NCBI GenBank assembly: GCA_027296055.1
Contig: JAPUJT010000016.1
Location: 1 to 64,000 of the forward strand
Reading direction: 5' to 3'
Length of the DNA: 64,000 nucleotides
Source of the DNA: Planctomycetota bacterium
GTDB lineage: Bacteria > Planctomycetota > JAPUJT01
Position 1 is the first letter of the stretch, and every line of letters begins with the position of its first letter. This document shows positions 20,115 through 56,047 of the stretch, piece by piece. The position numbers were made by a program, and so were the translations under genes. A model generated the notes under the pieces. It made no database searches and had not been told where the DNA came from. It was given only the letters and a program-made list of their open reading frames with translations.

Positions 20115-20147
20115 CCGGAATTGTTCCGGATTTGTTCCGGAATTTAT
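20115..20147. repeat. Three-copy 11-bp tandem repeat at the 3' end of the M24 gene
   Basis: CCGGAATTGTT (20115-20125), CCGGATTTGTT (20126-20136) and CCGGAATTTAT (20137-20147). The last copy overlaps the M24 stop codon. The string TGTTCCGG inside it also recurs in the array upstream of the M24 gene. Confidence 0.7.
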
Positions 20148-21493
20148 CGGACCTGGCGGATCTGGGTCGTCCCCCCGCGAGCCGCCCTCTCCTCGAGGCC
20201 GGGCTCGGCCTGGATCCGTTCGATCTCGTCCAGCTCGCGGGCGAGAGGGGCCGAGAGGTGAAGATACCCCTCATCCGTGACGAGGAGGTCGTCCTCGATC
20301 CGAATTCCGATCTCCTCCTCCGGTATGTAGATCCCGGGCTCGACCGTCAGGACCATGCCTGGCTCCAGCTTCCGGCGGCGCTGCCCGACGTCGTGGACGT
20401 CGAGACCGAGCCAGTGGCTGGTGCCATGGATGAAGAATTTTCCGTAACCGGCGGCGTCGATCACGTCCCTGGCCTTCTGGTGGACCTCTCCCATGGTGGC
20501 GCCGGGGCGGACGATCTCGAACGCCTCCTTCTGTGCCCTCAAGACGATCTCGTAGATCTCCTTCTGGCGCGGCGACATCTTCCCCGAGACGGGGAAGGTC
20601 CGGGTGACGTCGGCGGTGTAGTAGCCGAACTCCGCGCCGACATCCACCACGACGAGATCGCCCTCCTTCATCTGCCTCGTATTGTCCCGGTAATGGAGGA
20701 CACAGGAATTGGGTCCGGATCCGACGATCGATGAGAACCCCGTGCGCTGGGCCCCCTCGCGCCTGTAGACATACTCCAGGATCGCCTGGATCTGGTACTC
20801 GTACATTCCCGGCTTGATCGATCGCATCGCCTCCCGGGTTCCATCGCAGGTGATCGTGATCGCCCGGGTCAGGAGATCGATTTCCGCCTGCGACTTGACC
20901 TGCCTCAGTCCTGTCAGGATCGACCCGGAATGCGCCAGTCGGATCGGATCCCTGCCAGGCCGGGAGCCTCGAAGCTGGAGGCGCAGGATCGTATCCAGAC
21001 CGGCCGGGAGGCTCTCCTTCACGGCCACGCGTCGATAGTCGTAGTAGATCACCTTCTTGCGAGCGGCGCGCCTCGCCAGGATACCCTCGTACTCGGAGAG
21101 GGGGCGGGTCTTCCCGAAACCCGTCGCCTTCTCCGCCTCTTCCCCCGGGTACAGGCGGAGTCCGTCCCACCTCTCGCCACGGGGGTTTCGATCCGGCAGG
21201 AAGAGAATCTCCCCGTCCGGGCCCCCCGGATCCAGCATCAGGATCACCCCGGGATCGGTGACCCCGCTCAGATAATAGAAGCTGCTGCTCTGGCGAAAAT
21301 CCGTGACCCCTTCCCGTTTCGCTGCGCCCTTGAGAACGAAGAGGGCGTCCGGGCCGATCTCCTTCCGGACCGTCTCGCGACGAGACTGGTACTCCTCCAT
21401 GGAGATGCCAGAGGGGCCGTCCGCCAGGGCGACCGAACTCGCCTGCCCGAGAAAGAGAGACAGCATCGCCAATCGAAATATTCCTTCTGACAC
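20144..21493 (-). CDS. Exported M24 metallopeptidase (Xaa-Pro aminopeptidase type)
   Basis: 449 residues with an N-terminal leader (FRLAMLSLFLGQASSVALA). The N-terminal creatinase-like domain (about 30-180) is followed by a pita-bread domain with the five metal ligands in order: Asp in LVVVDVGAEF, Asp in TADVTRTFP, His in HGTSHWLGLDVHD, Glu in TVEPGIYI and Glu in GIRIEDDLL. It should cleave X-Pro peptide bonds using two divalent metals. E. coli PepP is cytoplasmic, so the leader is notable and matches the leader on the neighbouring M18 enzyme. Repeats carrying TGTTCCGG lie on both sides of the gene. Confidence 0.92.
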   Translation of the reverse strand: MSEGIFRLAMLSLFLGQASSVALADGPSGISMEEYQSRRETVRKEIGPDALFVLKGAAKREGVTDFRQSSSFYYLSGVTDPGVILMLDPGGPDGEILFLPDRNPRGERWDGLRLYPGEEAEKATGFGKTRPLSEYEGILARRAARKKVIYYDYRRVAVKESLPAGLDTILRLQLRGSRPGRDPIRLAHSGSILTGLRQVKSQAEIDLLTRAITITCDGTREAMRSIKPGMYEYQIQAILEYVYRREGAQRTGFSSIVGSGPNSCVLHYRDNTRQMKEGDLVVVDVGAEFGYYTADVTRTFPVSGKMSPRQKEIYEIVLRAQKEAFEIVRPGATMGEVHQKARDVIDAAGYGKFFIHGTSHWLGLDVHDVGQRRRKLEPGMVLTVEPGIYIPEEEIGIRIEDDLLVTDEGYLHLSAPLARELDEIERIQAEPGLEERAARGGTTQIRQVR

Positions 21494-21785: not shown

Positions 21786-22703
21786 GTGAAGGGACCAATC
21801 TTCTGCTTTCCCGGTGTCGGTAATGACAGTGTCGGCAACGACGAGGGTCCCGCTACGCCGTCCGGGAAACATTCCCCCTTGAGTCTTCCGGTGTGGCGCG
21901 ATCGCCTTTCGTCCGCGCCCCCGTGGCTGCAGGATCAGATGCGCACCGTGGCCATCGGGATCGTCGCCTTCGAACGGCTCTCCCGGGGTGGGATAGAGCC
22001 GGCGGTCATCACCTCCCACAGTCTGGGCATCTATGCTGCCCTCTCCGCCTCCGGGGCGATCACCCCCGGGGCGGCGCTCGATGCGGCCTGGAGGGCCGGC
22101 GAGCTTCTTCGGGAGCATCAGGACGAGTCGCTGGGCGCCTTGCTCGCCGTCGTGGGCCTGTCCCTCGATCAGGTGGAGGAGATCGTCCGCAACGTGGGGG
22201 GTTCCCTGAGGATCGCCGCCAGAAACACAGGATCCCAGTTCGTGCTGGGCGGCGAGATCGATGACCTGGATCGGGCCGAGGAGGAGGCAAGTGAGGCGCT
22301 CCAGGTGGAGCGCATCGACGCCGGGGGAGCGCTGCATACGGACAGGATGGATGCAATCGTGCCGAAGTTCGCCGAGTTTGTCGAACAGATGGAGGTCAGG
22401 GACCCTGCGCGGCCGTATCTCTCGCATAGAGGGGCGGCCTATCTGACATCCTCTGCCGAGGTCCGGGAGGCCCTTGCCGGGCAGTTGCGCGATCCGGTCC
22501 TCTGGAGCGACTGTCTCCTCAAGCTGGGCCGAGAGGGCGCGTGGCTCTTCGTCGACATGGGCCCCGGCTCGATGCTGAAGAAGTCCATTCGCTGGGTTCT
22601 GAGGAGCGCCCGAGCCCTTTCGCTGGCGGAGGGGGATACCCCCGAGGATGTGGCGGCCGCCCTCCGGGAGGCGGAGGGTATGGAAGGAGCGTCCGAGTCG
22701 TGA
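21786..22703 (+). CDS. FabD-like acyltransferase (malonyl-CoA:ACP transacylase family)
   Basis: 305 residues from a GTG at 21786 (KGPIFCFPG follows, matching the FabD start), with GGAGGGGA 13 bases upstream; longer in-frame extensions run through the repeat array. The nucleophile elbow reads SHSLGIY instead of GHSLG, with the catalytic Ser kept. An Arg in AWRAGELL matches the carboxylate-binding Arg of malonyl transferases, and ALHTDRM carries the catalytic His. It should load malonyl, or a similar acid, onto the ACP encoded next. It is the first gene of a six-gene coupled cluster; the ACP start overlaps its stop (GTGA). Confidence 0.85.
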   Translation: MKGPIFCFPGVGNDSVGNDEGPATPSGKHSPLSLPVWRDRLSSAPPWLQDQMRTVAIGIVAFERLSRGGIEPAVITSHSLGIYAALSASGAITPGAALDAAWRAGELLREHQDESLGALLAVVGLSLDQVEEIVRNVGGSLRIAARNTGSQFVLGGEIDDLDRAEEEASEALQVERIDAGGALHTDRMDAIVPKFAEFVEQMEVRDPARPYLSHRGAAYLTSSAEVREALAGQLRDPVLWSDCLLKLGREGAWLFVDMGPGSMLKKSIRWVLRSARALSLAEGDTPEDVAAALREAEGMEGASES

Positions 22704-22972
22704 GCGAGATTGGAGATGAGCTGGAGACCCGCGTCCGCGATCTGATCGTTCGCCGACTCAAGCTGGAGATCCCGCCGGACGAGATCCAGCTTGAAGCGCC
22801 GCTGTTCGGAGAGGGGCTCGGACTCGACTCGATCGACGCCCTGGAGCTGGTCGTCGGCCTCGAGCAGGAGTTCTCCATCGAGATCCCCGACGCGGACGTG
22901 GGGAAGAAGGTGTTCGCCTCGGTTCGATCGATCGCCGAATATGTTCGCCAGTCGCAGGTGGAGAGGGGTTGA
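22700..22972 (+). CDS. Acyl carrier protein
   Basis: 90 residues from a GTG that overlaps the acyltransferase stop. The chain is acidic and helical, with the phosphopantetheine attachment Ser in GLGLDSIDALEL, the standard DSL-type motif with Ile. Helix 1 (ETRVRDLIVRRLKLE) and helix 3 (FASVRSIAEYVRQ) fit the ACP fold. It would carry growing chains for the ketosynthase pair in this cluster. A separate primary-metabolism ACP is not visible in the window, and this one is likely dedicated to the cluster. Confidence 0.9.
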   Translation: MSEIGDELETRVRDLIVRRLKLEIPPDEIQLEAPLFGEGLGLDSIDALELVVGLEQEFSIEIPDADVGKKVFASVRSIAEYVRQSQVERG

Positions 22973-23394
22973 TGCAACCGGATCCCTCCGACCCGACACG
23001 CTGGTTGCCCCACCGAAAGCCTTTCCTCTTCCTGGATCGGATTGCCAGTGTCGTCCCTGGCCGCGAGGCGACGGCCTGGAAGCGGATCGTCGACTCCGAG
23101 TGCCGCGGAGTCGCTACATGGCCGCGGGCCTATCTCGTGGAGATGATGGCTCAGACATCGGCCATTCTCCTCTTCAGCGAAGAGGAGGGCAGGAGGGGAA
23201 GGATGGGTGTCCTCGCCGCGGTGCCCGCCCTCTCATTCCGTCGCTCCGCCCGACCGGGTGAGACGGTGGTCGCCACGGCGAGGCTCGAGAAGCGCTGGGG
23301 CGATCTCGCGCGATTCAATGTGGCCGCCCATGTGGAGGGGGAGCTGGCGGCGGAGGGGGCCCTCGTGCTGGCGGCAAGAGAAGGCGTGACCTGA
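22972..23394 (+). CDS. FabZ-like 3-hydroxyacyl-ACP dehydratase
   Basis: 140 residues; the ATG overlaps the ACP stop (TGATG) after a GAGAGGGG site. It begins with WLPHRKPFLFLDRI, the FabZ hot-dog signature with the catalytic His. The second catalytic residue is the Glu of LVEMMAQTSAILL, in place of the usual VEAMAQ helix. Length is normal for FabZ. It would dehydrate beta-hydroxyacyl-ACP to the trans-2-enoyl form. A ketoreductase to make its substrate is missing from the cluster and must come from elsewhere. The ketosynthase gene starts at the base after its stop. Confidence 0.87.
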   Translation: MQPDPSDPTRWLPHRKPFLFLDRIASVVPGREATAWKRIVDSECRGVATWPRAYLVEMMAQTSAILLFSEEEGRRGRMGVLAAVPALSFRRSARPGETVVATARLEKRWGDLARFNVAAHVEGELAAEGALVLAAREGVT

Positions 23395-24624
23395 GTGGGC
23401 GAGAACCCCGCCGAATCGGTCGTCATCACGGGCATCGGCGCCATCACCGCGTTCGGTGCCGGCACAGGCCCTCTCATCGACGGGCTCCTCTCGGGCCGCA
23501 CCGGAATCCGGCCCATCGAGATCTTCGACACGAGCAGGTACAGGACCAAGGTGGCGGCGGAGATCTCGACGATTCCGGAGCTGGAGCTCAATCGGCGCGA
23601 ACAGAAGGGGATGTCTCGCTGCGATCGCCTCGCCGTGACAGCGGCCGAGGAGGCCTTGAGAGCGGCGGATTGGGAGTCGATTCCGTCCGAGCGAATCGGA
23701 ATCGTCTTCGGGGCCGGGGCGGGTGGAATGCTGGAAGCGGAGCGTTACTTTCGTCGGTTCCTCGAGGAAGGCGCGACGACGCGAGCCCGCTGGCGATGTC
23801 TCGGGTCCCAGCTGCCGAATGCAGCGACCGACTGGCTGGCGGTGCGCTTCGGGACGAAAGGCCCGAAGGCGACGATATCGACCGCCTGCTCCTCCAGTGC
23901 CACGGCGATCGGTTATGGCGCCGATCTGATCCGCGCGGGGGAGGCGGACGCAATCCTGGCGGGCGGAGCGGAGGCGCTCTGCGAGGTGACCTTCGCCGGG
24001 TTCAATTCCCTGCGAGCCGTCGATCCCGCGGGCTGCAGGCCATTCGATCGTGACCGGAACGGGCTCTCCCTTGGTGAGGGGGCGGCGGCGATTCTGCTCG
24101 AGAGGGAATCGCTGGCTCGATCTCGTGGCGTCAAGCCTCTGGCCCGCATGCGAGGGTACGGGATCACCGCGGATGCGCATCACATGACGACCCCCCCCGA
24201 GGATGGCAGGGGGGCGACGGCGGCCATCCGGCAGGCGCTCCGGACCACGGGGCTCGAACCGGAAGAGGTGGATTTCATCAGCGCACACGGGACCGCCACG
24301 CGGGCCAACGATGTCGTGGAAGCGCGAGCGATCGCCAGGACCTTTGGTGAGTCGGCCGCCCACACTCCCGTCCACTCGATCAAATCCTCCGTCGGCCATT
24401 GCCTGGGCGCATCCGGCGCTGTCGAGGCGGTGGCGTTGCTCCTCTCGCTCGAGTCGGGGGCAGTCCCGGCGACGTACGGCCTCGAGCATCAGGACGAATC
24501 GATGCCCACCCTCGATCTGGTGCGGGGCTCGCCTCGCAGGCGCCCTCTCCGGATCGGGATGTCGAACTCCTTCGCCTTCGGCGGTAACAACACGGTGCTG
24601 ATCTTCGAGGGGATCGATTCGTGA
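23395..24624 (+). CDS. Beta-ketoacyl-ACP synthase (KAS II/KS-alpha type), catalytically complete
   Basis: 409 residues from a GTG directly after the dehydratase stop. The thiolase-fold active site is intact: Cys165 (STACSSSA), His298 (SAHGTATRAND), Lys in HSIKSSV and His335 (VGHCLGASG). GNN-type motif FAFGGNNTVL is near the end. It condenses malonyl-ACP with an acyl chain. It is followed by a paralog of similar length that lacks all catalytic residues; the two probably form a heterodimer like the KS-alpha/KS-beta pairs of type II polyketide synthases. The next gene start overlaps its stop (GTGA). Confidence 0.93.
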   Translation: MGENPAESVVITGIGAITAFGAGTGPLIDGLLSGRTGIRPIEIFDTSRYRTKVAAEISTIPELELNRREQKGMSRCDRLAVTAAEEALRAADWESIPSERIGIVFGAGAGGMLEAERYFRRFLEEGATTRARWRCLGSQLPNAATDWLAVRFGTKGPKATISTACSSSATAIGYGADLIRAGEADAILAGGAEALCEVTFAGFNSLRAVDPAGCRPFDRDRNGLSLGEGAAAILLERESLARSRGVKPLARMRGYGITADAHHMTTPPEDGRGATAAIRQALRTTGLEPEEVDFISAHGTATRANDVVEARAIARTFGESAAHTPVHSIKSSVGHCLGASGAVEAVALLLSLESGAVPATYGLEHQDESMPTLDLVRGSPRRRPLRIGMSNSFAFGGNNTVLIFEGIDS

Positions 24625-25856
24625 CCACAGAGCGCGCCGTGGTCAGCGGGATCGGGGTCGTCTCGCCGCTGGGTATCGGCGTGGAGAGCCTGCGGGAGGC
24701 CCTCCGGGAGGGCCGCTCCGGCATCAAGCCGATCGATCGATTCGACACGACGCCTTATCCTTCACGGCTCGGCGGGTGTGTGGAGGGGTTCGAGCCGAGG
24801 GATTTCATTCCCGCGATGCGTGTCCGGCGGATGGACCGAGCGTGTCAGATGGCCGTGGCGGCCGGCGGGATGGCGCTCGAGGACGGAAAGCTCTCCCTCG
24901 ACGACATCGATCCGTCGGATCTGGGGATCGTTATCGGGACAGGGGGGGCGGGGACGGAGAGCACCTACCGATTCTTCCAGGGTCTCGTGGAGTCCGGTCC
25001 CCAGGCGACAAACCCGCTGCTCTTCCCCACGACGGTGACCAATGCTCCCGCGGGGATGCTGGGGATCGAGGTCGGGGCGACCGGCCCGAACACGACTTTT
25101 GCCCAGAGGGGAAACGCCGCGGAGGCGGCGATCATCTGCGCCAGCCGCTGGATTTGCCAGGGTCGCGCTCGATACGTTCTCGCGGGCGGAGTCGATGAGC
25201 TGAACGAGGCCTACTTTCACGGCCACTCCGTCTTCGGGATCCTCTCCCCGGGTGGGGCGGGGGGGGAGGAGGGAATGCGACCCTTCGACGCCTCGCGGAA
25301 TGGGATCGTCATGACCGAGGGGTCCACGATCCTCCTCCTCGAGGCGGCCTCCAGGGCGAAGGAGCGTTCCGCGCCGATCTACGGGGCGATGGCCGGGTGG
25401 GGAGAAGCGTCGGATGCTTCCGACCTCCTCGCCTATCCTCGATCGGACGCTGCGGTCGAGAGGGCCCTATCCGGCGCCCTTCGATCGGCGGGGATCGGGC
25501 CGGACAGGATCGGATGGCTGAACGCCTCCGCTAACTCCAGCCTGGGCCTCGATCCCCTCGAGGTGTCGGCGATCTCCCGCGTCTTCGCCGCGCGGCAAGG
25601 CGGGGTAGCCACAAGCAGCGTGAAGTCGTACTTTGGAGACTCGATGGCATCGGGGGCCCTGCGAGCGGCCGCCTCGCTGCTCGCGCTGAGGGACGGGGTG
25701 ATCCCCCCGACCTTGAATCTGCGAGAGCCGATCGAGGCGGTGGGAGTGGATCATGTTATCGGAGCCCCCCGGGAAGTGAACGGGATCGAAGCGGTGCTTC
25801 AAGATGGGGTGGCGGACGGCGGCGACTGTCTGGGAATAGTCTTCACGAAGGAATGA
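24621..25856 (+). CDS. Non-catalytic ketosynthase-like subunit (KS-beta/chain-length-factor type)
   Basis: 411 residues from a GTG overlapping the KS stop. The fold is clearly KAS II (MTTERAVVSGIGVVSPLGIG start; LAGGVDEL; TSSVKSYFG), but aligned against the preceding KS the nucleophile Cys is Gly164 (FAQRGNAAEA), the first His is Ser (NASANSSLGLD) and the second His is Asp (YFGDSMASGA). The Lys after TSSV is kept. It therefore cannot condense on its own. In type II polyketide systems such partners set chain length within a KS heterodimer. That role is inferred from pairing and residue loss. The thioesterase start overlaps its stop. Confidence 0.88.
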   Translation: MTTERAVVSGIGVVSPLGIGVESLREALREGRSGIKPIDRFDTTPYPSRLGGCVEGFEPRDFIPAMRVRRMDRACQMAVAAGGMALEDGKLSLDDIDPSDLGIVIGTGGAGTESTYRFFQGLVESGPQATNPLLFPTTVTNAPAGMLGIEVGATGPNTTFAQRGNAAEAAIICASRWICQGRARYVLAGGVDELNEAYFHGHSVFGILSPGGAGGEEGMRPFDASRNGIVMTEGSTILLLEAASRAKERSAPIYGAMAGWGEASDASDLLAYPRSDAAVERALSGALRSAGIGPDRIGWLNASANSSLGLDPLEVSAISRVFAARQGGVATSSVKSYFGDSMASGALRAAASLLALRDGVIPPTLNLREPIEAVGVDHVIGAPREVNGIEAVLQDGVADGGDCLGIVFTKE

Positions 25857-26320
25857 GCCCTCACTCTCCCTCGAGGTCAGCCATGGAACGGAGCGAGACT
25901 CATCTCAAGGTGCGACTCTCGGACGTCGATGCCTTTGGGGTCGTCTGGCATGGGCGGTACATCTCCTATTTCGAGGCGGGCCGAACCGATCTTCTCCAGC
26001 CCTTCGGGCTCTCGGCGGCCCGGTTGAAGGAGGAGGGATTCTTCCCGGCGATCGTCAGCTTCCAGTGCGATCTCCTGTCACCGGCGCGGGACGAGGAGTC
26101 CCTCGTCGTTCGATGCTGGCCCGAACCCTCGGAGGCGGCGCGGTTGACTCTATGCTACGAGATCGTTCGCGAGGACGACGGTGAGCTCGTTGTCCGCGGG
26201 ACGACGACCCAGGTCCTTATCGATTCGCGCGGCGTTCTCCTCTACCGATTCCCTCCCGCGGTAAAGGAGCGAGTCGAGGCTCTTCTTTCGGCGCTCGACG
26301 GTGGGGGAGATTCGGGCTAA
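25853..26320 (+). CDS. Hot-dog thioesterase (4-hydroxybenzoyl-CoA/YbgC type)
   Basis: 155 residues; the ATG overlaps the KS-beta stop (ATGA), though an in-frame ATG at 25883 would also give a full domain. The signature DVDAFGVVWHGRYISYFEAGR has the catalytic Asp and the aromatic-rich strand of the family (compare D-x-D-x-x-x-G-V-x-x-H in YbgC). It would release the acyl product from the cluster ACP or cleave an acyl-CoA. It is the last gene of the coupled six-gene run; a 48-base gap precedes the M50 gene. Confidence 0.9.
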   Translation: MSPHSPSRSAMERSETHLKVRLSDVDAFGVVWHGRYISYFEAGRTDLLQPFGLSAARLKEEGFFPAIVSFQCDLLSPARDEESLVVRCWPEPSEAARLTLCYEIVREDDGELVVRGTTTQVLIDSRGVLLYRFPPAVKERVEALLSALDGGGDSG

Positions 26321-26368: not shown

Positions 26369-27328
26369 ATGGGCGAATGGTCATTCAAGGTGGGGCGGAT
26401 CTTCGGGATACAGATCCGACTCCACCTCTTCTTCGTCATGGGGGTCGCCTTTATCCTCCTGCGGGGGCACAAGAACGGGGATTTCACCAATGCTCTGTTC
26501 TGGTGCTTCAGTCTCTACGTCACCGTCCTTCTCCACGAACTGGGGCACTGCTGGGCCGGGATCCGGAACGGGGCTCGAGCGGAGAGTATCCTCCTCTGGC
26601 CCCTGGGCGGCCTGGCCACGATCACAGGAGGCCGTGACACCCCCGGGGCGACGATCGAGATCGCCGCCATGGGCCCCGCCGTCAACCTCATACTTTGCAT
26701 CCTGATCGGAGGAGGCCTGATGCTGGCGGGAAGTGCCCCGTCGCTCAACCCCTTCGCCTGGCCTCACAGCTTCGCGGACGGGCTCTTCCGGATGAATCTC
26801 GTCCTGCTCCTCTTCAACCTTCTGCCGGCATACCCTCTCGACGGGGGGAGGATCCTTCAAGGCGTGCTCGCCATATTCTATGGGTTCGGTCGCAGCGTCC
26901 TCATCGCCACACGCGTCGGTCAGGTCGCCTCGATCGTCCTTGGCGTTCTGGCGATAGCTTATGAACAGATCCTCGTCGCCGTGATCGCCCTCTACATCTT
27001 TCTGACCTGCGGCCAGGAGAGGCAGAGGGTGAAGGAAGGTGCATTCTACAGCGAATCCGAACAGATCTTCGGGCACGACTTCTCCGCCGGCTATCGGAGT
27101 CTGGAAGCTGAGGAGAAGCCGGTGCGGAAGTCGTGGCGCCAGCGGCGTCGGGAGCTGAAACTCCGTCGGAAGGCGACCCAGGCCGCCCAGGAAGAGTCGG
27201 CGATGCGCCAGAGAGTGGACGACCTTCTCGAGAAGGTCGGACGCGACGGGATCGACAGCCTCACGGCGAAGGAGCGTGGCTTCCTGGAAGAGGCAAGCCG
27301 AAAGTTCCGGTCCGGGTCGCAGGAATAG
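26369..27328 (+). CDS. M50 family site-2-type membrane metalloprotease
   Basis: 319 residues with about five hydrophobic segments. The zinc site is HELGH (His56, Glu57, His60) and the third ligand is Asp158 in AYPLDGGRIL. These define an intramembrane zinc protease of the SpoIVFB/S2P class. There is no PDZ domain. After the membrane part comes a charged tail (about 230-319; KSWRQRRRELKLRRKATQ, then LTAKERGFLEEAS), which resembles the small C-terminal helical module often found on bacterial rhomboid-type membrane proteases. It may release a membrane-bound regulator; no substrate is linked here. It could be co-transcribed with the KS cluster. Confidence 0.9.
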   Translation: MGEWSFKVGRIFGIQIRLHLFFVMGVAFILLRGHKNGDFTNALFWCFSLYVTVLLHELGHCWAGIRNGARAESILLWPLGGLATITGGRDTPGATIEIAAMGPAVNLILCILIGGGLMLAGSAPSLNPFAWPHSFADGLFRMNLVLLLFNLLPAYPLDGGRILQGVLAIFYGFGRSVLIATRVGQVASIVLGVLAIAYEQILVAVIALYIFLTCGQERQRVKEGAFYSESEQIFGHDFSAGYRSLEAEEKPVRKSWRQRRRELKLRRKATQAAQEESAMRQRVDDLLEKVGRDGIDSLTAKERGFLEEASRKFRSGSQE

Positions 27329-36980: not shown

Positions 36981-37171
36981 TCAGTGGGCATCCTGCTTGA
37001 CATGAGAGAATTATTCGAGGACAGTGTCGTGCGGGCACTCCTTTCAAAGTGACTGGTTGGGACCACGGTGACCGGGCGGCAATTTAGCTGCCCCAAGGGG
37101 GGTCTCTCTCCATCGGCAGACTTTTTACCTAAGGCGGGCCTGTGCTTCTCGGGCCCGGGAAAGGAGAGATC

Positions 37172-38809
37172 ATGCGAGCGTTTCTACATAGGATCGTCGT
37201 CTTCCTGGCGCTTCTTGCCGTCGGTTGCGGCGGAGGAGGCGGCGGTGGCGGCGGTGGAGGTGGCCCGGGCGCGACGGTTGCTGTCTCAGGGACACTCACA
37301 TTCGATTCAGTGCCTCCGACCCTGTCGGGGCTGAACTATGCCAGCACGACCCAGAGTCCGAGCAGGGGAGTGATCGTCGAGGCGGTGCAGGCTTCCAATT
37401 CGTCGGTGCTCGATTCAACGACAACAGATGGTGCGGGAGGCTATTCCCTCGCGGTTCCCCGGAGCGTGGATATCTACGTCCGAGTCAAGGCCCAGATGCG
37501 GGCAGTGGGCACGCCTTCCTGGGATATCCAGATCGTAGACAACACGAGCGGCAAGGCGCTTTATGCCCCGATTACACTTACCTTTGACTCGGGGACTGCG
37601 GCCCAGACAATGAACCTCAACCTGCCCTCAGGATGGGGGGGCGCATCCTACACTTCGCCACGGTTCGCCGCCCCGTTCGCCATTCTCGACGCTGTGTACG
37701 AAGCCGATCAGATGGTGGTCGCCGCGGATCCCGGCGTTACCATGACGCCGCTCCTGATCAACTGGAGCGTGAACAATGTGACATTTGACGGCGACAAGAC
37801 CCTCGGCCAGATCGGAACCTCTCATTGGGACGGCACACAGCTCTTCATCCTGGGTCAGGAGGACAACGACACGGACGAGTACGACAGTCACGTCATAGTC
37901 CACGAATGGGGGCACTACTTCGAGAGCGCGCTATCGAGGAGCGACTCCACGGGGGGTAGTCATGGCTCCGGCGACGTGCTGGATCCGAGGCTCGCCTTCG
38001 GGGAAGGATTCGGGAACGCCCTGTCTGGGATGGCTCTGGACGATCCTCTCTATCTGGACACGTCTGGTCCTGGTCAGGGTATGGCCGGGCTCCCAATTAA
38101 CCTCGAGAACAACTTCGAGGAGGAGATGTGGGAAGGTTGGTTCAGTGAGGCATCGGTTCAGATCATCCTGTATGACATCTACGACGCCTCTAGTGATGGA
38201 GTGGATACGGTCTCCCTGGGATTCGCTCCCATCTACGACGTGCTCGTCAACGAGCAGCGAACGACTGATTCATTCACGACGATTTTCTCCTTCATCGCCC
38301 ACCTGAAGCAGAACAATCCTGGTGCCGTGGCGGGGATCAACAGCCTCCTCGCAGGCGAAAACATCACGACCACTGCCGTTGACGAATGGGACAGCACCGC
38401 CACGGAAACCAACGACTTCGGGGACCTGGACGCGCTGCCGGTCTATATACCGCTAACTGTAGGGGGTCCGTTGGACTTTGTCTGCGGGAACGCCAACAAC
38501 GGCGGGTATAACAAGCTCGCGAACCGCAGTTACTTCTACTTTCAGGTCGCCGCATCGGGGAGTTACTCGATCACTGCCGTGCCCTGGAGTGCGAACGGAG
38601 ACCCGGTGATCGTCCTCTATAGTCAAGGCGGCATGCCGCTCAAAGAGGAGAATAGTGGCACGGCCGGAGTCAGTGAGACCCTGACGATCACCTTGAATCC
38701 GGGGACCTACGTCGGCGAAGTCTACCATTGGTGCCATGTCGACGGTTGGGGCATGCCCGCATGCGCCGGCTTCACCGGGTTTGAGTGCTTCGATGTGTCC
38801 GTCAATTAA
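37172..38809 (+). CDS. Secreted zinc metalloprotease-like lipoprotein, copy 1
   Basis: 545 residues from the ATG at 37172 with AAGGAGAG upstream. The leader FLALLAVGC ends in a lipobox followed by a run of about 12 Gly encoded by GGN triplets. A beta-rich domain (about 35-180: VSGTLTFDSVPPTLSG, STTTDGAGGYSLAVPRSVDI) comes next. The catalytic region has VIVHEWGHYFE (His244, Glu245, His248) and a downstream FGEGFGNALSG that may give the third zinc ligand. It matches no MEROPS family I can name with confidence. The substrate is unknown. A paired lipoprotein gene follows after 58 bases, and the whole unit is duplicated downstream. Confidence 0.82.
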   Translation: MRAFLHRIVVFLALLAVGCGGGGGGGGGGGGPGATVAVSGTLTFDSVPPTLSGLNYASTTQSPSRGVIVEAVQASNSSVLDSTTTDGAGGYSLAVPRSVDIYVRVKAQMRAVGTPSWDIQIVDNTSGKALYAPITLTFDSGTAAQTMNLNLPSGWGGASYTSPRFAAPFAILDAVYEADQMVVAADPGVTMTPLLINWSVNNVTFDGDKTLGQIGTSHWDGTQLFILGQEDNDTDEYDSHVIVHEWGHYFESALSRSDSTGGSHGSGDVLDPRLAFGEGFGNALSGMALDDPLYLDTSGPGQGMAGLPINLENNFEEEMWEGWFSEASVQIILYDIYDASSDGVDTVSLGFAPIYDVLVNEQRTTDSFTTIFSFIAHLKQNNPGAVAGINSLLAGENITTTAVDEWDSTATETNDFGDLDALPVYIPLTVGGPLDFVCGNANNGGYNKLANRSYFYFQVAASGSYSITAVPWSANGDPVIVLYSQGGMPLKEENSGTAGVSETLTITLNPGTYVGEVYHWCHVDGWGMPACAGFTGFECFDVSVN

Positions 38810-38867
38810 GAAGATCGATCGTAGCGCTGCGGTCAATGCGAGGCGCTTAACCACGAGAGGGAAGACC

Positions 38868-39404
38868 ATGTACTCGACTTCAAGAGCGAGGATTCAGGTT
38901 CCGATCCTGGCATTATTTGGGTTTCTATCTGCGATAGTCGGCTGCACCAATGCCGTCGACAGCGGGCCATCGGATAGATCCATGAGCGGAAAGCCGACGG
39001 CACCATTCAACATCTCCTACACGATTCCTGATCAAGCTGATGTCGGGAAGGCCATCGACGCCGTGGTTTCTTTCAAGGTGCTCCAGAACGTAGAGAACCT
39101 CAAAATGAAGCTCACGGAGGGAAAGGGGCTCCAGATCGTCTCGCAGAAAACGACGTTTGATTATGGGGCTGAGGTGGCAGGGGCTTCGTTCTCCGAGACT
39201 GTCTCCGTCCGTCCAGGGGAGGAGGGGATTCTGTATCTGAACGTATTCGTTTCGGGCGACTTCCGAGGGAGGTCGATGACCCGGACCGGAGCGGTTCCTA
39301 TCAAGACGGGGGATGAAGTCAAGCTCGAGACGCCAGGCAGGATAGTCAAGGACTCGGAAGGTCGGCCGCTCATCGAGATGCCAATCCCCAAACAGGATCG
39401 CTAG
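38868..39404 (+). CDS. Small lipoprotein paired with the metalloprotease, copy 1
   Basis: 178 residues from the ATG at 38868. Leader VPILALFGFLSAIVGCTNAV has a lipobox Cys. The mature part is a beta-sandwich-like chain (FNISYTIPDQADVGKAIDAVV, cited in part; VRPGEEGILYLNVFVSG; TRTGAVPIKTGD) resembling Ig-like or protease-inhibitor folds in pattern only. No family recognised. It follows the metalloprotease and its paralog follows the second protease, so it is likely a partner, inhibitor or chaperone of the protease. Confidence 0.7.
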   Translation: MYSTSRARIQVPILALFGFLSAIVGCTNAVDSGPSDRSMSGKPTAPFNISYTIPDQADVGKAIDAVVSFKVLQNVENLKMKLTEGKGLQIVSQKTTFDYGAEVAGASFSETVSVRPGEEGILYLNVFVSGDFRGRSMTRTGAVPIKTGDEVKLETPGRIVKDSEGRPLIEMPIPKQDR

Positions 39405-39636
39405 GCAGCAGCAGGAGTGTTACTACGTCTGCGGCCCCGGCCGTATCCTCCAAGGACATGGGGGAACTGTTTGAGGAGAGTGTCTTGGGGGTACTCCTTT
39501 CAAAATTTCAAAATGACAGGTTGGGACGATTGTGACCGGGCGGCGATCTCACTACCCCCCGGGGGGGCTTTCTCCCTCGGCATACTTCTTTACCCAACGC
39601 GGGCCTGTGCTTCTCGGGCCCGGGAAAGGCGAGATC

Positions 39637-41280
39637 ATGTGGGCATGTCTACATGGGCTCATCGTCTTCCTGGCGCTCTTTGCCGTCGGTTGTGGCGGAG
39701 GCGGCGGTGGAGGTGGCGGTGGAGGCGGCCCGGGGCCGCAGGTGACTGTCTCAGGGACGCTCACATTCGATTCAGTGCCTCCGACCCTGTCTGGATTGGA
39801 CTATGCCAGCACGACTCAGAGTCCGAGCAGGGGAGTGATCGTCGAGGCGGTGCAGGCTTCCAATTCGTCGGTGCTCGATTCAACGACAACAGATGCTGCG
39901 GGAGGCTATTCCCTCACAGTTCCCCAGAGCGTGGATATCTACGTCCGAGTCAAGGCCCAGATGCGGGCAGTGGGCACGCCTTCCTGGGATTTCCAGATCG
40001 TAGACAACACGAGGAGCAAGGGTCTTTATGCCCCGTTTACACCGACCTTCGACTCGGGGACCGCCGCCCAGACAAGAAACCTCAACCTCCCCTCAGGATG
40101 GGGGTTTCCATCCTACACATCGCCACGGCTCGCGGCTCCGTTTGCCATCCTCGACGCTGTGTACAAAGCCTTTCAGAAGGTGGTCAGCGCGGACCCCGGC
40201 GTCAACATGCCGCCGCTCCTGATCAACTGGAGCGTACTCAACTTCCCTACCCCCGGGGACGTCACCCTCGGCCAGATCGGAGGCTCTCATTTCAATCTCG
40301 TGACCAGGGAGATCTTCATCCTGGGCGCGGAGAACAACGACACGGACGAGTACGACAGCCACGTCATAGTCCACGAATGGGGGCACTACTTCGAGAACGG
40401 CCTTTCGAGGACCGACTCCAAAGGGGGTCCTCATAGGATCGGGGACGTGCTGGATCCGAGGCTGGCATTCGGGGAGGGATTCGGCAGCGCCTTGTCTGGG
40501 ATGATGCTCGACAACCCCACCTTCATCAATACGGCCGGTTCCGGCCAGTCAATGGTCCAGTACTCCTTCAACCTGGAGAACAACTTCTTTCAGGAGGCGA
40601 CTGAGGGTTGGTTCAGCGAGACCTCGGTCTGGGTGATCCTCTACGACCTCTACGACAGCACCAACGACGGGGCGGATACGGTCTCCCTGGGATTCGCTCC
40701 CATCTACGACGTGCTCGTCAACGAACAGCGAACGACGGATTCATTCACGACGATTTTCTCCTTCATCGCCCACCTGAAACAGAACAACCCTTCTGCCGTT
40801 GCGGGGATCAACAGCCTTCTCGCAGGCGAGAGTATCACGACCACAGCGGTGGACGAATGGGATAGCACGGGTACGGAGATCAACGACTTCTTCGATCCGG
40901 ACGTGCTGCCCGTCTATTCACAGCTAACCGTAGGGGGTCCCTCGGACCTACTCTGTGTGAACGGCAGCCATGGCATGGAGTTTTACAACAAGCTCGCAAG
41001 CCGCAGTTACTTCTTCTTTCAGGTCGTCACCTCGGGAAGCTACTCGATCACCGCTGTCCCCGATGTGGATGGAGACCCGGTGATCATCCTCTATAGTCAA
41101 GGCGTCCGGCTCGCGAGGGAGGACAGTTTCCCCCCCGGATTCAGTGAGACCCTGACGCTGTCCCTGAATCCCGGGATCTACGTCGGCGAAGTCTACGAAT
41201 GGTGCCATGTCGATGGTTTCGGCAACCCGGGTTGCGGGGGCTTCAACGGGCAGGAGTGCTACAATGTGTCCGTCAATTAA
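39637..41280 (+). CDS. Secreted zinc metalloprotease-like lipoprotein, copy 2
   Basis: 547 residues from the ATG at 39637. The leader (HGLIVFLALFAVGC) and poly-Gly run match copy 1. The zinc motif VIVHEWGHYFE (His246, Glu247, His250) and FGEGFGSALSG are kept, as is DRT-free DEYDSHVIVHEW. Differences from copy 1 cluster in the middle (about 145-235: KAFQKVVSADPGVNMPPLLI against EADQMVVAADPGVTMTPLLI) and near the C-terminus. Both copies keep all putative zinc residues, so both should be active. Divergence in surface parts suggests different targets. The paired lipoprotein gene follows after 58 bases. Confidence 0.82.
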   Translation: MWACLHGLIVFLALFAVGCGGGGGGGGGGGGPGPQVTVSGTLTFDSVPPTLSGLDYASTTQSPSRGVIVEAVQASNSSVLDSTTTDAAGGYSLTVPQSVDIYVRVKAQMRAVGTPSWDFQIVDNTRSKGLYAPFTPTFDSGTAAQTRNLNLPSGWGFPSYTSPRLAAPFAILDAVYKAFQKVVSADPGVNMPPLLINWSVLNFPTPGDVTLGQIGGSHFNLVTREIFILGAENNDTDEYDSHVIVHEWGHYFENGLSRTDSKGGPHRIGDVLDPRLAFGEGFGSALSGMMLDNPTFINTAGSGQSMVQYSFNLENNFFQEATEGWFSETSVWVILYDLYDSTNDGADTVSLGFAPIYDVLVNEQRTTDSFTTIFSFIAHLKQNNPSAVAGINSLLAGESITTTAVDEWDSTGTEINDFFDPDVLPVYSQLTVGGPSDLLCVNGSHGMEFYNKLASRSYFFFQVVTSGSYSITAVPDVDGDPVIILYSQGVRLAREDSFPPGFSETLTLSLNPGIYVGEVYEWCHVDGFGNPGCGGFNGQECYNVSVN

Positions 41281-41338
41281 TATGGAGGATCGGGGATTCG
41301 TGGTCAATGCGCCGCTCCTAGCCACGGGAGGGAAGACA

Positions 41339-41875
41339 ATGCATCGGACTTCAAGACCGAGGACTAAGTTTTCGCTTCTGACATTGCTCGGGCTGCTATC
41401 TGCGATGGCCGGCTGTACCAATGCCGTTGACAGCAGGCCAGCGAACCGATCGATAAGCGGAAAGCCGACGGCGCCCGTCAATATCACCTATACCGTCCCC
41501 GATAAAGCGGATGTCGGGAAAGCCATCGACGCCGTGGTTTCTTTCAAGGTGCTCCAGGCGGTAGAGAACCTCAAGTTGACGCTCACGGAAGGCAAGGGGC
41601 TCCGGATCGTCTCGGAGAGGACGACGTTCGATTACGGCGCCCGAGCGGCAGGGGCCTCGTTCTCCGAAACCATCTCCGTCCGCCCGGAGGAGGAGGGGAT
41701 TCTGTATCTGAACGTGTTCGTTACGGGCGGCTACCGAGGGAAGGTGATGACCCGGACGGGAGCGGTGCCTATCAAGACGGGGAATAAGGGAACGCTCGAT
41801 GCGCCAGGTAGGCTAACCCGGGACTCGGAAGGGAGGCGGCTTATCGAAATGCCAATCCCCGATCAGGATCGCTAG
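41339..41875 (+). CDS. Small lipoprotein paired with the metalloprotease, copy 2
   Basis: 178 residues from the ATG at 41339. Leader FSLLTLLGLLSAMAGCTNAV has a lipobox Cys. It is a paralog of the 38868 protein (shared GKAIDAVVSFKVLQ, LTEGKGL, FDYG, EEGILYLNVFV, MTRTGAVPIKTG). Differences are spread over the whole chain. Like copy 1 it lacks any catalytic motif. It ends the duplicated unit; topA is convergent 106 bases downstream. Confidence 0.7.
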   Translation: MHRTSRPRTKFSLLTLLGLLSAMAGCTNAVDSRPANRSISGKPTAPVNITYTVPDKADVGKAIDAVVSFKVLQAVENLKLTLTEGKGLRIVSERTTFDYGARAAGASFSETISVRPEEEGILYLNVFVTGGYRGKVMTRTGAVPIKTGNKGTLDAPGRLTRDSEGRRLIEMPIPDQDR

Positions 41876-44539: not shown

Positions 44540-45277
44540 CTAGAAAGGCAGGCCTCCGGGCGGGGTCGAGACCTTTGTCCCTTCGGGGAGATCCAGCATG
44601 AATCTCTCCTTCTTGATCCCCTGGTTCACCTTCGTCTTGGACAATACCAGCTCCGTGTAATCCTTGCCGTTCGGATCTACCAGGCGGAGGCGAACCGGTA
44701 CGCCTTTCTCCCGGTCCACCCACAGGCCAATCCTTCCGACCCATCGTCGCATCTTCTTCCTCCGGGGTCGGAAGCGGAGGTGCCAGGTCTTGGCATCCTT
44801 CGGTCCCGTCATCAGCTCGATCTCGTAAGTCTTCTTCATCTCGTCCGACGTCTGCCCGAATCCGGGGAACAGGGCTCCGAAGTTCTCATTCTCTCCCGCG
44901 GGGAATCTTTCAGCTCTCTTCTCCTCCGGAACGTGGAGGAGAATACCCTTCTCGTCGAGCACCAGGACGCTCCGGGACGGCTCCGTCCAGTCCATCCGGA
45001 GCTTACCCTCTTTCCAGTAAAGCAGACCCCTCGAGACGTCTGGCTCCTTCAAGAGGTGGATCACCTGGGTCTGGACGAATTCAGCCTCCAGATCCTTCAG
45101 GCCCTTCTGCTTCTCGTCGAGGGCCCTGAGGACCCCCTCCACCTTCTCCCGGGCCTGTTCCCGGGAGACAGCAGGCGGCGAGCCTGGCTTGTCCGCTGTG
45201 TCCTGCGGCCCGCCAGGACCAAGGAGGCCCGGGAGACCCAGGAGGAACGCCGCAACCAGCAAACCGGAGCCTATCAT
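44540..45277 (-). CDS. lolA: LolA-type outer-membrane lipoprotein carrier
   Basis: 245 residues from the ATG at 45277 (MIGSGLLVAAFLLG leader); a start at 45328 would add 17 residues. The mature part has the LolA pattern: helix EGVLRALDEKQKGLKDLEAEF, then strands GLLYWKEGKLRMDWTEP, ILLHVPEEK and WHLRFRPRRKK, with VDPNGKDYTELVLS near the end. LolA carries lipoproteins across the periplasm to LolB. It fits with the many lipoproteins here and with the lipid acyltransferase and exporter upstream. No LolB is visible. It ends 11 bases before topA. Confidence 0.85.
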   Translation of the reverse strand: MIGSGLLVAAFLLGLPGLLGPGGPQDTADKPGSPPAVSREQAREKVEGVLRALDEKQKGLKDLEAEFVQTQVIHLLKEPDVSRGLLYWKEGKLRMDWTEPSRSVLVLDEKGILLHVPEEKRAERFPAGENENFGALFPGFGQTSDEMKKTYEIELMTGPKDAKTWHLRFRPRRKKMRRWVGRIGLWVDREKGVPVRLRLVDPNGKDYTELVLSKTKVNQGIKKERFMLDLPEGTKVSTPPGGLPF

Positions 45278-45364
45278 ACTGACTGCTACCCCCTTCGCCC
45301 GTGAGACCCAGGCCCGGTCCCCGGCCAAGCGTGCAGGAAAATGAGTCGGGAAGAACGGGAGGGG

Positions 45365-46318
45365 CTATACGGAAGTCCTTGGCAAATCTGATTTTGTGGC
45401 ATAGGCGCTACGATCGACTCGCTCCTCCTGCCAGATATCGAAAAAATTATACCACTGGTCAGGATGGCGGGCAATCATGGCTTCGAAGCAGGCGGCGAGC
45501 CTCTGGGTGGCGTTGCGGAGGTCGGCGTCGCGCTCGTCGGTCCGGTCCACCCAGATCGGCTCCTCCGCAACGGCATCATAAATCCAATCATCACCGAGAG
45601 TTACGAATACGGGGACGATGGGTGCCCCGGAGGCCCTGGCCAGGATCGCCGGGCCGAGGGGAAAGCCCGTCGAGCGGCCAAAGAAAGGGACCCATGCCGT
45701 GGCTCCCGAGTGGGAACGGTCCGCCAGGAGGGCGACGATACGGTTGCGCCTCAGGGCGGCCAGCAGGGGAACGAGCGAGAATGCGCCCGCGCCGTCGGAG
45801 AGGGTAAGCGTCTCCACTCCGATTCGCCGGCGGATCGCTTCCCGAAGAGCGAGCACGCCGGGGTCCGGCTCCAGGGCCGTAGCCACGCTCACCGGGTAGC
45901 CATGCGACGCGAGGAGGGCTCCCCCCATCTCCCAGTTCCCGAGGTGGGCCGTCACGGCGACGACCCCCTTGCCGCGCTGGAGGGCCCTTCTCAACTCCTC
46001 CTCTCCCTCCATTCGCGGGATCACTGCCTGGAGCTCTTTCCTGCCCATATGAGGGAGGAGCATGTAATCCAGGAGATACTGGCCGTAGTGGCGGAAAGTC
46101 CTGTAGGTAAGACGCCTGATCTCCCCGCGCGAGAATTTTCCCCCTCCCACGATCTCGATGTTTCGCGCGATGGCCTTCCGGGACCTGGGAAAGAAAAGGA
46201 GTGAAAGAACCGCGAGCGGCGCCCCGAGCCATGCCTGTAGCCGCCGGGGGAGCAAGCGCGCCGCGGCCTCCAGGGGGACGAGTAACTCCCGGCGCGTGGG
46301 GTGGTCCCCGCGTCTCAT
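45365..46318 (-). CDS. LpxL/HtrB-type lipid acyltransferase
   Basis: 317 residues; the ATG overlaps the exporter stop by 4 bases. The HX4E catalytic motif is HLGNWE in VVAVTAHLGNWEMGGALLAS. A second conserved block is ADRSHSGATAWVPFFGRSTGFPLGP, cited in part. These match lipid A late acyltransferases (secondary acyl transfer to Kdo2-lipid A) and related membrane lysophospholipid acyltransferases. There is one hydrophobic N-terminal helix (WLGAPLAVLSLLFFP). The gene clusters with RND and ABC exporters, so a modified outer-membrane lipid may be made and exported here. The substrate is not certain. Confidence 0.88.
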   Translation of the reverse strand: MRRGDHPTRRELLVPLEAAARLLPRRLQAWLGAPLAVLSLLFFPRSRKAIARNIEIVGGGKFSRGEIRRLTYRTFRHYGQYLLDYMLLPHMGRKELQAVIPRMEGEEELRRALQRGKGVVAVTAHLGNWEMGGALLASHGYPVSVATALEPDPGVLALREAIRRRIGVETLTLSDGAGAFSLVPLLAALRRNRIVALLADRSHSGATAWVPFFGRSTGFPLGPAILARASGAPIVPVFVTLGDDWIYDAVAEEPIWVDRTDERDADLRNATQRLAACFEAMIARHPDQWYNFFDIWQEERVDRSAYATKSDLPRTSV

Positions 46319-48870: not shown

Positions 48871-49656
48871 TCACCCCTCGTGTGTGGCGAGCTCCTTCGA
48901 GCGCAGCATGTAGATGGAGGCGACGAGCAAGCCGGCGGCGACCGCCAAGGCCACCAGGAGGTGAAACCACCAGCCCTCCGGGCCGACGGGGGCGCGGATC
49001 AGCTCGGTCAGCTTGGCGTCGTCGAACAACTGCGCCGTCAGGCTTCTTATCCTGTACGAGAGGGTGATCCGGTTGATGAGTACCGGGATCAACGAGAAGA
49101 GAAACTCGAAGAGAAGGGCATAGATGACGGCTACGACCATTCCCCTCCTGACCGTGAGCACGCCGATGAATCCGAAGAGCGCCCCGTAAACAAGAGCGGA
49201 CAGGACGACTATGCCTCCCATCACCCCGAGGATCTCCAGCCCTCGCTCCGGTCGGAGCAGGGCCAGGATGAGACCGAGAGAGACGAGCCCCGTCGATGCC
49301 GTCCAGATGAAGGCTATCGCGAACTTACCCAGGAAAATGGAGGTCCGGCCATGCGGCCTCACCGAGACGAACAGCCAGGTGCGCGACTCCAGTTCCGCCT
49401 GGACGATCGTCGTGGCCCAGAGGAGCGCAGCCAGCATGCAGGTGACGTTGGGGATCAGCATGAACAAGATCATGACCAACGGGGCGAAGGTTGTCGTGAG
49501 AGTGCCCTTCGGGTCCTGCAGAGACTCGAGGTAGCTCATCAGGAGGACGAGGGCCACCGGAAACAGGGTAAGAGCGAACCACCAGGCGACCCGGAAGAAG
49601 GTCAGCGTGCGTCTCGCCTCGAAGAGGAACGTGGCCCAGCCGCCTCCTGGCCTCAT
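48871..49656 (-). CDS. ABC-2 type permease
   Basis: 261 residues with about six hydrophobic helices (WWFALTLFPVALVLLMSYL, LVMILFMLIPNVTCMLAALL, IVVLSALVYGALFGFIGVL, VVAVIYALLFEFLFSLIPVL). The ELESRTWLFVSVRPHGR motif between helices is typical of ABC-2 permeases. Its start overlaps the stop of the ATPase gene at 49653, so the two form one transporter. Three bases separate its stop from the RND gene start. Confidence 0.85.
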   Translation of the reverse strand: MRPGGGWATFLFEARRTLTFFRVAWWFALTLFPVALVLLMSYLESLQDPKGTLTTTFAPLVMILFMLIPNVTCMLAALLWATTIVQAELESRTWLFVSVRPHGRTSIFLGKFAIAFIWTASTGLVSLGLILALLRPERGLEILGVMGGIVVLSALVYGALFGFIGVLTVRRGMVVAVIYALLFEFLFSLIPVLINRITLSYRIRSLTAQLFDDAKLTELIRAPVGPEGWWFHLLVALAVAAGLLVASIYMLRSKELATHEG

Positions 49657-50588
49657 GTCCGGCCTCCCCGATGGATCAACAGGAGGGATTCGAAGAGACT
49701 CTGGAGGGACTCGTCCGGAGAGCGGACCTCGCGAACACGAACCTCGGTACCCTCGAGCAGCGATGGCAGTCGTTCATAGAGACTGGCCGGTGATCTCGTC
49801 GAGACAACAACGACGTCGCCGTGCCCCTCGAACCTCACCCCCTCGATCAGGCCCGAATCGAGGAGCAGACGGGCCAGGACGGGCGCAGGATCGCAGCGGA
49901 TCCGGATCTCGTGGGGGACATCCGCCAGAAGCCGCCGAACCTCCTCGGCCGTACCGGAGGCGAGGAGGCGGCCGCTGCATATCAGGATGAAGGACGAGGT
50001 CACTGCCTCCACCTCGTACAGGATGTGGCTCGCGAGCAGCAGGCTCCTCCCCTCCAGTATCCATTCACGAAAGAACTCGGTCATCTCGTGTCGCCCGACC
50101 GGGTCGAGGCCGTTGAAAGGCTCGTCGAGGATCAGGAGCCTGGGCCGGTGTGCGAACGCTTGAGCCAGCTTCGTCCGTTGCCGCATACCGAGAGAGTAGG
50201 TTCCGATCAGTCGGTCCATTGCATTGGCCATCCCGACACGGTCAAGAGTCTCTCGAGCCCGTTTTCGGGCCTCTTTCCGGTCGAATCCGTGGAGGTGCAG
50301 CAGGTACTCGACACATGCCGCGCCGGTCACGTTGGAGTAGGGGAGGTCCTGTTCCGGGCAGAGCCCGATCTGCCCGAGGACCTCGGCGTTGTCCCAGGGG
50401 TCCTGGCCGAAGGTGCGGACCGTCCCGACGTTGGGGCGGATCTGTCCCGTCACGAGGTTCATGAACGTCGTCTTCCCCGAGCCGTTCGGACCCAGGATCC
50501 CGTACGCCCCCGGCTCCAGCGACAGATCGATGTCATTCGCCCCGATGACCATCCCGTATAGCTTGGTGACGTGGCTTAGCTCGATCAT
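49653..50588 (-). CDS. ABC transporter ATP-binding protein (first of two in the operon)
   Basis: 311 residues. Walker A GPNGSGKTT, Q-loop GLCPEQDLPYSNVTG, signature YSLGMRQRTKLAQAFA (a SLGM variant), Walker B LLILDEPFNGLD and switch His in LASHILYEVE are all present. A C-terminal domain (about 225-311) with alternating strands follows the nucleotide-binding part. It pairs with the permease at 48871, whose start overlaps its stop. A permease gene lies 4 bases upstream. Confidence 0.92.
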   Translation of the reverse strand: MIELSHVTKLYGMVIGANDIDLSLEPGAYGILGPNGSGKTTFMNLVTGQIRPNVGTVRTFGQDPWDNAEVLGQIGLCPEQDLPYSNVTGAACVEYLLHLHGFDRKEARKRARETLDRVGMANAMDRLIGTYSLGMRQRTKLAQAFAHRPRLLILDEPFNGLDPVGRHEMTEFFREWILEGRSLLLASHILYEVEAVTSSFILICSGRLLASGTAEEVRRLLADVPHEIRIRCDPAPVLARLLLDSGLIEGVRFEGHGDVVVVSTRSPASLYERLPSLLEGTEVRVREVRSPDESLQSLFESLLLIHRGGRT

Positions 50589-50592
50589 CGGA

Positions 50593-52426: not shown

Positions 52427-52521
52427 TCTTCTTCGATCGAGACGCGCCGAGGGGGCGCTGGATTTTCTCATCCCGGTCGGACTCACCGGCTTCTTCCATC
52501 CGATCGGCGTGAGGAGGACGG

Positions 52522-52550
52522 AGTATATCACTGTTGGGATGGCCACCCAA
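52522..52550 (-). promoter_or_regulatory. Promoter for the ABC/RND operon
   Basis: On the minus strand, TATACT (52527-52522) has TTGGGT (52550-52545) 17 bases upstream. The -10 is close to consensus and the -35 weak. It lies in the 305-base gap 52427-52731 between the divergent ABC operon and PilZ gene, which also holds the PilZ promoter at 52660-52688 and nothing else I recognise. Confidence 0.4.
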
Positions 52551-56024: not shown

Positions 56025-56047
56025 GTATGGAGAAGGGAGCCGAACCG

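Follow-up and report, generated by a model that had tools for sequence, protein, structure and literature searches.

A compact planctomycete synthase block whose inactive ketosynthase is very probably a chain-length-factor-like partner

Inactive ketosynthase (KS) paralogues beside active KSs were described in Planctomycetes in 2009 (PMC2649909), and the dead KS partners of anammox lipid clusters have remained puzzling ever since. What does such a partner do, and what does the pair make, when it is encoded in a block of only six genes? We addressed this question for positions 21786-26320 (+ strand) of a 64,000-nt stretch of contig JAPUJT010000016.1 (assembly GCA_027296055.1, Planctomycetota bacterium), referred to here as the window. 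The block encodes an acyltransferase (AT), an acyl carrier protein (ACP), a dehydratase (DH), an intact KS (KS-alpha), an inactive KS homologue (KS-beta), and a thioesterase (TE). On balance, we favor a reading in which it forms a dedicated acyl synthase, built on KS-alpha and KS-beta, that relies on a borrowed FabG reductase and whose chain is passed to a lipid by an LpxL-family acyltransferase and on to the envelope by an MMPL exporter and a LolA-like carrier.

A preliminary description of this DNA held that KS-beta had lost all catalytic residues. In the alignment, KS-alpha (23395-24624, +) has the complete set C165/H298/K330/H335, while the counterparts in KS-beta (24621-25856, +) are G164/S303/K335/D340. 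The nucleophilic cysteine and both histidines are gone, but the conserved Lys335 is retained, so the claim was slightly overstated. The block thereby shows the general hallmark of a KS/chain-length factor (CLF) system: an intact KS followed by a co-translated KS homologue without the active-site cysteine. KS-beta is an intact frame of 411 aa, and its AlphaFold2 model (mean pLDDT of 86) has a full-length FabF fold (TM 0.94 to FabF). A Foldseek search with this model was non-discriminating, with FabFs dominating and the ishigamide KS/CLF at rank 24, and the scores of KS-beta against the Streptomyces KS/CLF structures 1TQY and 6KXD were below its score against FabF. The chain-length residues of the actinorhodin CLF are F109, T112, and F116 (PMC4383371); aligned with chain B of 1TQY, the window KS-beta has T112, T115, and F119 at these positions, and its nearest relatives have T/T/F.

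All six genes lie on the + strand, and every junction overlaps or abuts by 0-4 bases: in gene order, GTGA, TTGA (or TGATG), TGA directly followed by GTG, GTGA, and ATGA, giving overlaps of 4, 4 (or 1), 0, 4, and 4 bases. The AT gene (21786-22703) starts at GTG 21786, about 11 nt downstream of a Shine-Dalgarno-like GGAGGGGAG; the alignment of the AT family begins at the same codon, though the reading frame stays open back to TTG 21600. It is followed by the genes for the ACP (22700-22972; phosphopantetheine Ser44 in GLGLDSIDALE), a FabZ-like hot-dog DH (22969-23394; His15 and Glu58 retained, GHFP loop shortened), the two KSs, and a YbgC/4HBT-type hot-dog TE (25853-26320; SDVDAFGVVWHG). Searches of Pfam and NCBIfam gave Acyl_transf_1 for the AT (5e-14), PP-binding for the ACP (3e-13), FabZ for the DH (2e-19), fabF for KS-alpha (1e-114) and KS-beta (2e-86), and 4HBT_2 for the TE (2e-13). 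Coordinates, junctions, and families thus bear out the earlier view of six overlapping or abutting genes. Since the homology far exceeds chance and paired KSs were found in further genomes, the sequences argue for a real block and chance open reading frames (ORFs) can be set aside. The ORFs and families of the block include neither a ketoreductase (KR) nor a cyclase, as had been claimed, and show no misread or split KR. A divergent M24 peptidase gene (20144-21493, - strand) lies 5' of the block; 48 bp after the TE gene is a gene for an M50-family peptidase with DUF6576 (26369-27328, +), which is possibly co-transcribed with the block.

Both subunits were placed in a maximum-likelihood tree of 67 KS sequences and in a second tree without long branches; KSs from Streptomyces plasmids, intended to represent aromatic systems, turned out to be lone and FabF-like and were left out. 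In the 67-sequence tree, the window KS-alpha falls inside a deltaproteobacterial KS-alpha clade (support 100/99) and KS-beta, on a long terminal branch (1.25), inside the deltaproteobacterial KS-beta clade (100/97). The superclades have supports of 83/89 (alpha) and 100/98 (beta), or 96/83 and 100/99 without long branches. The nearest outside neighbours of both clades are anammox-type pairs (of the kuste3605/3606 type) and the two parts of KS-KS fusion proteins encoded on plasmids of Priestia and Streptomyces; the aryl-polyene KS ApeO lies far outside the KS-alpha clade. The phylogeny that had been suggested as a check therefore places KS-beta with deltaproteobacterial KS-betas and, more distantly, with those of the anammox ladderane-candidate clusters; KS-beta does not resemble the half-size ApeC. 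Alpha and beta distances were correlated over 19 pairs (r 0.98, a value inflated by shared descent) and over eight clade representatives (r 0.91, p 5e-4), and trees and mirror tree together show the co-evolution expected of a KS/CLF pair. A stronger point than the r of 0.98, to judge by these sequences, is the shared departure of the two window subunits from their own phylum to the same foreign clade: both group with another phylum and not with the pairs of their own, and so travelled together.

Among the pairs of the window's phylum, the KS-betas of family f42 carry the residues printed for Kuste3606 (Val163, Asn298, Tyr300, Gly302, Glu333) and for Kuste2805 by Rattray et al. 2009 (PMC2649909), and we take the carriers of f42 pairs to be anammox bacteria. 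A scan of 294 genomes gave no further KS-beta of the window's own family (own score 703 bits, next 350). The nearest relatives of the window genome among those compared share only its phylum, and the scan of named genomes gave three useful loci.

Homologues also suggest that the subunits pair physically. The KS-alpha of an anammox-type locus (L108) matches chain B of PDB entry 9S5H (816 bits; next match 362 bits), and the KS-beta of the same locus matches chain C (753 bits; next match 242 bits); anammox-type alpha and beta are thus chains of one solved entry, and we limit the claim to that. Alpha-beta fusions into single proteins, found on the Priestia and Streptomyces plasmids, point to pairing as well. 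Because of the mirrored trees, the anammox chains in 9S5H, and these fused relatives, we regard KS-beta as very probably a CLF-like partner of KS-alpha, the dimerization of the window proteins being predicted by analogy with their homologues. The dedicated KS/CLF-like pair proposed earlier is supported by all of these observations.

The FabD/MdcH-type AT has the active-site residues Ser79 and His184. In FabD, Arg117 holds the malonyl carboxylate. Counted from the active serine, this position is Ala in the window AT and Ile or Ala in 25 of 25 related ATs, while the arginine is kept in the genome's own FabD and in a Priestia AT. The motif after the active serine in these ATs is GIY (SHSLGIY in the window), GVY, GIF, or, once, GFY, rather than GEY. 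The window AT thus lacks the residue that marks a FabD-type malonyl-CoA:ACP transacylase; it does not appear to be a canonical malonyl transferase, and the loss of Arg117 suggests a non-malonyl starter. As such, this AT family offers a directly testable prediction on the starter unit. Among 199 genomes of the window's phylum, the window's own AT was the only member of its family.

Tracing the LpxL-family gene of the window in deltaproteobacterial genomes that have the KS pair brought up a further locus there, which encodes LpxL, ACP, AT, TE, and radical S-adenosylmethionine (SAM) enzymes (L157, L158). The window AT is 31-33% identical to the ATs of this cassette. Its ACP shares 57% identity with the cassette ACP (L158), 39-40% with the aryl-polyene ApeE, and 28% with the genome's own AcpP; its TE is 39-40% identical to the cassette TE and 30-33% to ApeK. 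The DH is without the GHFP loop, as is the E. coli aryl-polyene DH at L099:40688-41149. In most carrier genomes, the Arg117-less AT adjoins an ACP and a TE of the cassette kind. More distant members have ACP, AT, and TE together with no LpxL within the stretch read, and in the four or five lowest AT scorers (G295, G296, G315, G493, G469) the AT adjoins a radical SAM gene instead. The deltaproteobacterial KS loci combine the KS pair with LolA and, in one subgroup, also with LpxL. The search for the same block in other genomes, as had been proposed, hence recovered its parts in about twenty deltaproteobacterial genomes, but split over two loci. By this comparison, the window block would be a pooled form of parts lying in two loci elsewhere, and the system probably extends beyond the six genes. 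In a genome without a KS-beta of the window's family (L185, G642), the genes for a DH and an Arg117-less AT adjoin a LolA-like gene.

Homologues of these further components are encoded in the window on the - strand: a LolA-like carrier (44540-45328), an LpxL-family acyltransferase (45365-46318), and an MMPL/RND-type exporter (46315-48867), the latter two genes overlapping by 4 bases. The carrier matches the LolA encoded directly 5' of KS-alpha in L082, L029, and L031, and the exporter matches an MMPL near the KS-alpha/KS-beta pair of L082 (165 bits) as well as ApeM. Of the genome's four LpxLs, that of the window is the nearest to the LpxL of the deltaproteobacterial KS locus (194 bits, against 108, 84, and 77). 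We consider LolA, LpxL, and MMPL likely partners of the block, in a role that is predicted. Directly upstream of these genes, with a gap of a few bases, lie genes for two ABC ATPases and two ABC-2 membrane proteins (48871-52546, -), which possibly form one long export operon with them.

Association across genomes is consistent with this set. In a sample of 390 genomes, treated as independent although they are not, so that association and not cause can be read from the numbers, the AT occurred in 25 genomes and KS-beta in 21, with both in 18 (1.3 expected, p 1e-22). LpxL occurred in 48 genomes, 19 of them with KS-beta (2.6 expected, p 2e-17). The window genome has the full set together, i.e., homologues of KS-alpha, KS-beta, ACP, Arg117-less AT, TE, LpxL, and LolA.

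The genome also carries a complete rpmF-plsX-fabH-fabD-fabG-acpP-fabF operon on contig C182 (identities read from translations), which rules out the block as the housekeeping fatty acid synthase (FAS). As the block is without a reductase while FabG is available on C182, reduction is likely supplied by FabG in trans, and the borrowed reductase suggested at the outset becomes likely.

We infer every chemical step of the proposed route from the observed gene content and order, residues, phylogeny, and association. The AT would charge the dedicated ACP with an acyl starter other than malonyl, while malonyl units would come from the housekeeping FabD. KS-alpha would perform decarboxylative condensations at Cys165, and KS-beta, itself non-catalytic, would make up half of the dimer as well as half of the acyl tunnel, thereby limiting chain length. 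FabG in trans would reduce each beta-position, and the DH of the block would dehydrate it. The chain is probably unsaturated, since there is no dedicated enoyl reductase. After release by the TE, it would be esterified to a lipid by the LpxL-type acyltransferase and carried to the envelope by MMPL and LolA, as in aryl-polyene systems. More tentatively, and with rather less confidence, the block may be the compact form of an envelope-lipid pathway shared across phyla, with an unsaturated chain and a non-malonyl starter, in which case the anammox ladderane-candidate genes would derive from related machinery. As a six-gene relative without radical SAM enzymes or desaturase, the block is small enough to be expressed whole, which would show the product of the KS-alpha/KS-beta core itself.

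One of the closest systems is the deltaproteobacterial one, for which no name was found in the literature searched (L029, L031, L082, L083-L093; cassette L157, L158; KS-alpha 43-51% and KS-beta 38-43% identical). It shares the ACP (57%), the TE (40%), the AT without Arg117 (33%), LolA, and LpxL. Unlike the window, it is spread over two loci with B12 radical SAM enzymes, a CrtI-like oxidoreductase, and methyltransferases, and it additionally has an acyl-CoA dehydrogenase, an extra KS-beta-like protein, and FabG, all missing from the window block. Several of these loci (L086, L090-L093) encode a third KS homologue beside FabZ, in which Phe replaces the Cys and neither histidine is kept (LVQSFCTAE), and which by its sequence appears to be a second kind of dead KS. 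Further KS-beta homologues have Glu in place of the Cys and lack an adjoining KS-alpha (L087, L088, L089, L094, L095, L098); they lie near acyl-CoA ligase-like genes, in genomes that carry ACP-AT-TE.

The anammox cluster kuste3603-3608 of Kuenenia (PMC2649909, PMC4790861), whose dead KS partners were proposed in 2009 to recruit ready-made ladderane units (PMC2649909), has the same ACP-FabZ-KS-alpha-KS-beta order, which also occurs at anammox loci L108 and L110 and at the f74 loci L112 and L113. Its KSs form sister clades to those of the window; its KS-beta has likewise lost the cysteine and both histidines and kept the lysine, and by inference the phylum is common. The window block differs in its dedicated AT and TE, in its KS-beta residues (G/S/D, against V/N/E), and in having neither a CrtI-like desaturase nor a radical SAM enzyme; identities are 35% for KS-alpha and 28% for KS-beta. 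No CrtI-like oxidoreductase gene adjoins the block, and only a 19.6-bit fragment match was found genome-wide; for radical SAM genes, absent from the block, no genome-wide search was made.

The aryl-polyene cluster of E. coli CFT073 (apeA-R; PMC8253772) shares a KS/CLF pair, ACP, DH, and ApeK-like TE with the window. It also encodes an LpxL-type acyltransferase domain, LolA, and an RND/MMPL exporter, kinds of protein for which a role in attachment and export of the polyene has been proposed (PMC8253772). In the window, the ApeK-like TE is in the block while LolA, MMPL, and LpxL lie 18 kb away. Only the aryl-polyene cluster has the KR ApeQ, the second KS ApeR, the aryl ligase ApeH, and a methyltransferase; the KSs belong to other clades, and its CLF ApeC is of half size (PMC8358021), with 240 aa against 411 aa for KS-beta. 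The block thus has neither an ApeC/ApeO-type pair nor ApeQ, ApeH, or ApeR. A cluster on a Priestia megaterium plasmid (NZ_CP048889) resembles the block in TE, AT, ACP, FabZ, and KS-alpha/KS-beta, the latter two joined in one 809-aa protein, but encodes in addition a KR, a short-chain dehydrogenase/reductase, a phosphopantetheinyl transferase (PPTase), a GcvT-like protein, and a major facilitator superfamily transporter; its KS-alpha is 38% identical and its AT keeps Arg117. The 809-aa fusion, recorded for a Priestia megaterium plasmid at L103 (9935-12364), unites KS-alpha with a dead KS-beta and has TE, PPTase, AT, KR, ACP, FabZ, and GcvT-like genes in its cluster. The Streptomyces type II KS/CLFs (actinorhodin, 1TQY; ishigamide, 6KXD) also join an active KS to an inactive full-length partner, with Gln at the Cys position in the actinorhodin CLF, against Gly164 in KS-beta; neither this Gln nor cyclase or aromatase genes are found in the block. 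A 2023 catalogue of non-actinobacterial CLFs takes in examples from planctomycetes and Deltaproteobacteria (PMC10132072). In the literature searched, we found no description of so compact a gene set, of the AT cassette lacking Arg117, or of the two-locus pairing, and the remark that no named pathway has this set held to that extent, but the dead KS partner is of a kind already known.

Several observations weigh against the favored reading. The residues T112/T115/F119 of KS-beta give no readable chain length, and Arg116, which adjoins the Ala of the window AT, might still bind malonate. FabG follows in both fully read deltaproteobacterial cassettes and does not follow in the window. The co-occurrence p-values take no account of shared descent. 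LolA-LpxL-MMPL is 18 kb from the block on the opposite strand, and equally close LpxLs occur in two relatives without KS-beta (G001, 211 bits; G032, 200 bits); the export operon may therefore serve something else, and LpxL alone is weakened as proof of an envelope link.

The same LpxL findings, together with the position of the TE inside the block, would suit a stand-alone fatty or hydroxy-acid synthase, with the same KS chemistry but with the TE freeing the acid for use elsewhere and LolA-LpxL-MMPL unrelated. We hold this to be rather unlikely, as the deltaproteobacterial LpxL adjoins the same ACP, AT, and TE, or LolA and KS-alpha/KS-beta, and the window LpxL is far closer to these than are the genome's other three. 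That KS-beta is simply a decayed or neutral paralogue beside an ordinary FAS gene set, which its long end branch could suggest, is hardly credible: its frame and fold are intact, an inactive KS is kept 3' of an active one across two phyla, and the genome's own FAS is complete on another contig.

The shared gene order and the sister clades could alternatively indicate a ladderane or polyunsaturated-lipid pathway like that of kuste3603-3608. We think this very unlikely in view of the lack of a neighbouring CrtI-like desaturase gene (with only the 19.6-bit fragment match genome-wide) and of radical SAM genes in the block, and the placement of both subunits in the deltaproteobacterial rather than the anammox branch; moreover, even for the anammox genes the product is unproven (PMC4790861). 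There is equally little reason to expect an aromatic polyketide cluster, whether aryl-polyene or type II polycyclic. KS, KS-beta, and ACP do resemble a minimal polyketide synthase, and the closest annotated references for ACP and TE are ApeE and ApeK of E. coli, but aryl starter ligase, KR, cyclase, and aromatase are all missing from the block, KS-beta is full length and without the actinorhodin Gln, and ApeO is distant from KS-alpha.

Some further features of the window lie outside the block. At 59200-64000 (+), a gene for a PfaD-like protein (NMO with a FabD helical insert) is followed by one for a KS-AT multidomain protein that runs off the contig, which by their domains appear to belong to a synthase of the polyunsaturated fatty acid (PUFA)/secondary-lipid type. 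On contig C185 (L116), the genes for a two-KS-domain protein of 2183 aa, a FabH-like protein, and a PPTase are perhaps the remainder of this PUFA-type synthase. Tandem ORF pairs of 555+222 aa and 582+222 aa at 37142-41875 (+) resemble a duplicated gene pair, and two neighbouring DUF1028 genes are followed by a gene for a WD40-repeat protein at 54966-56812 (+).

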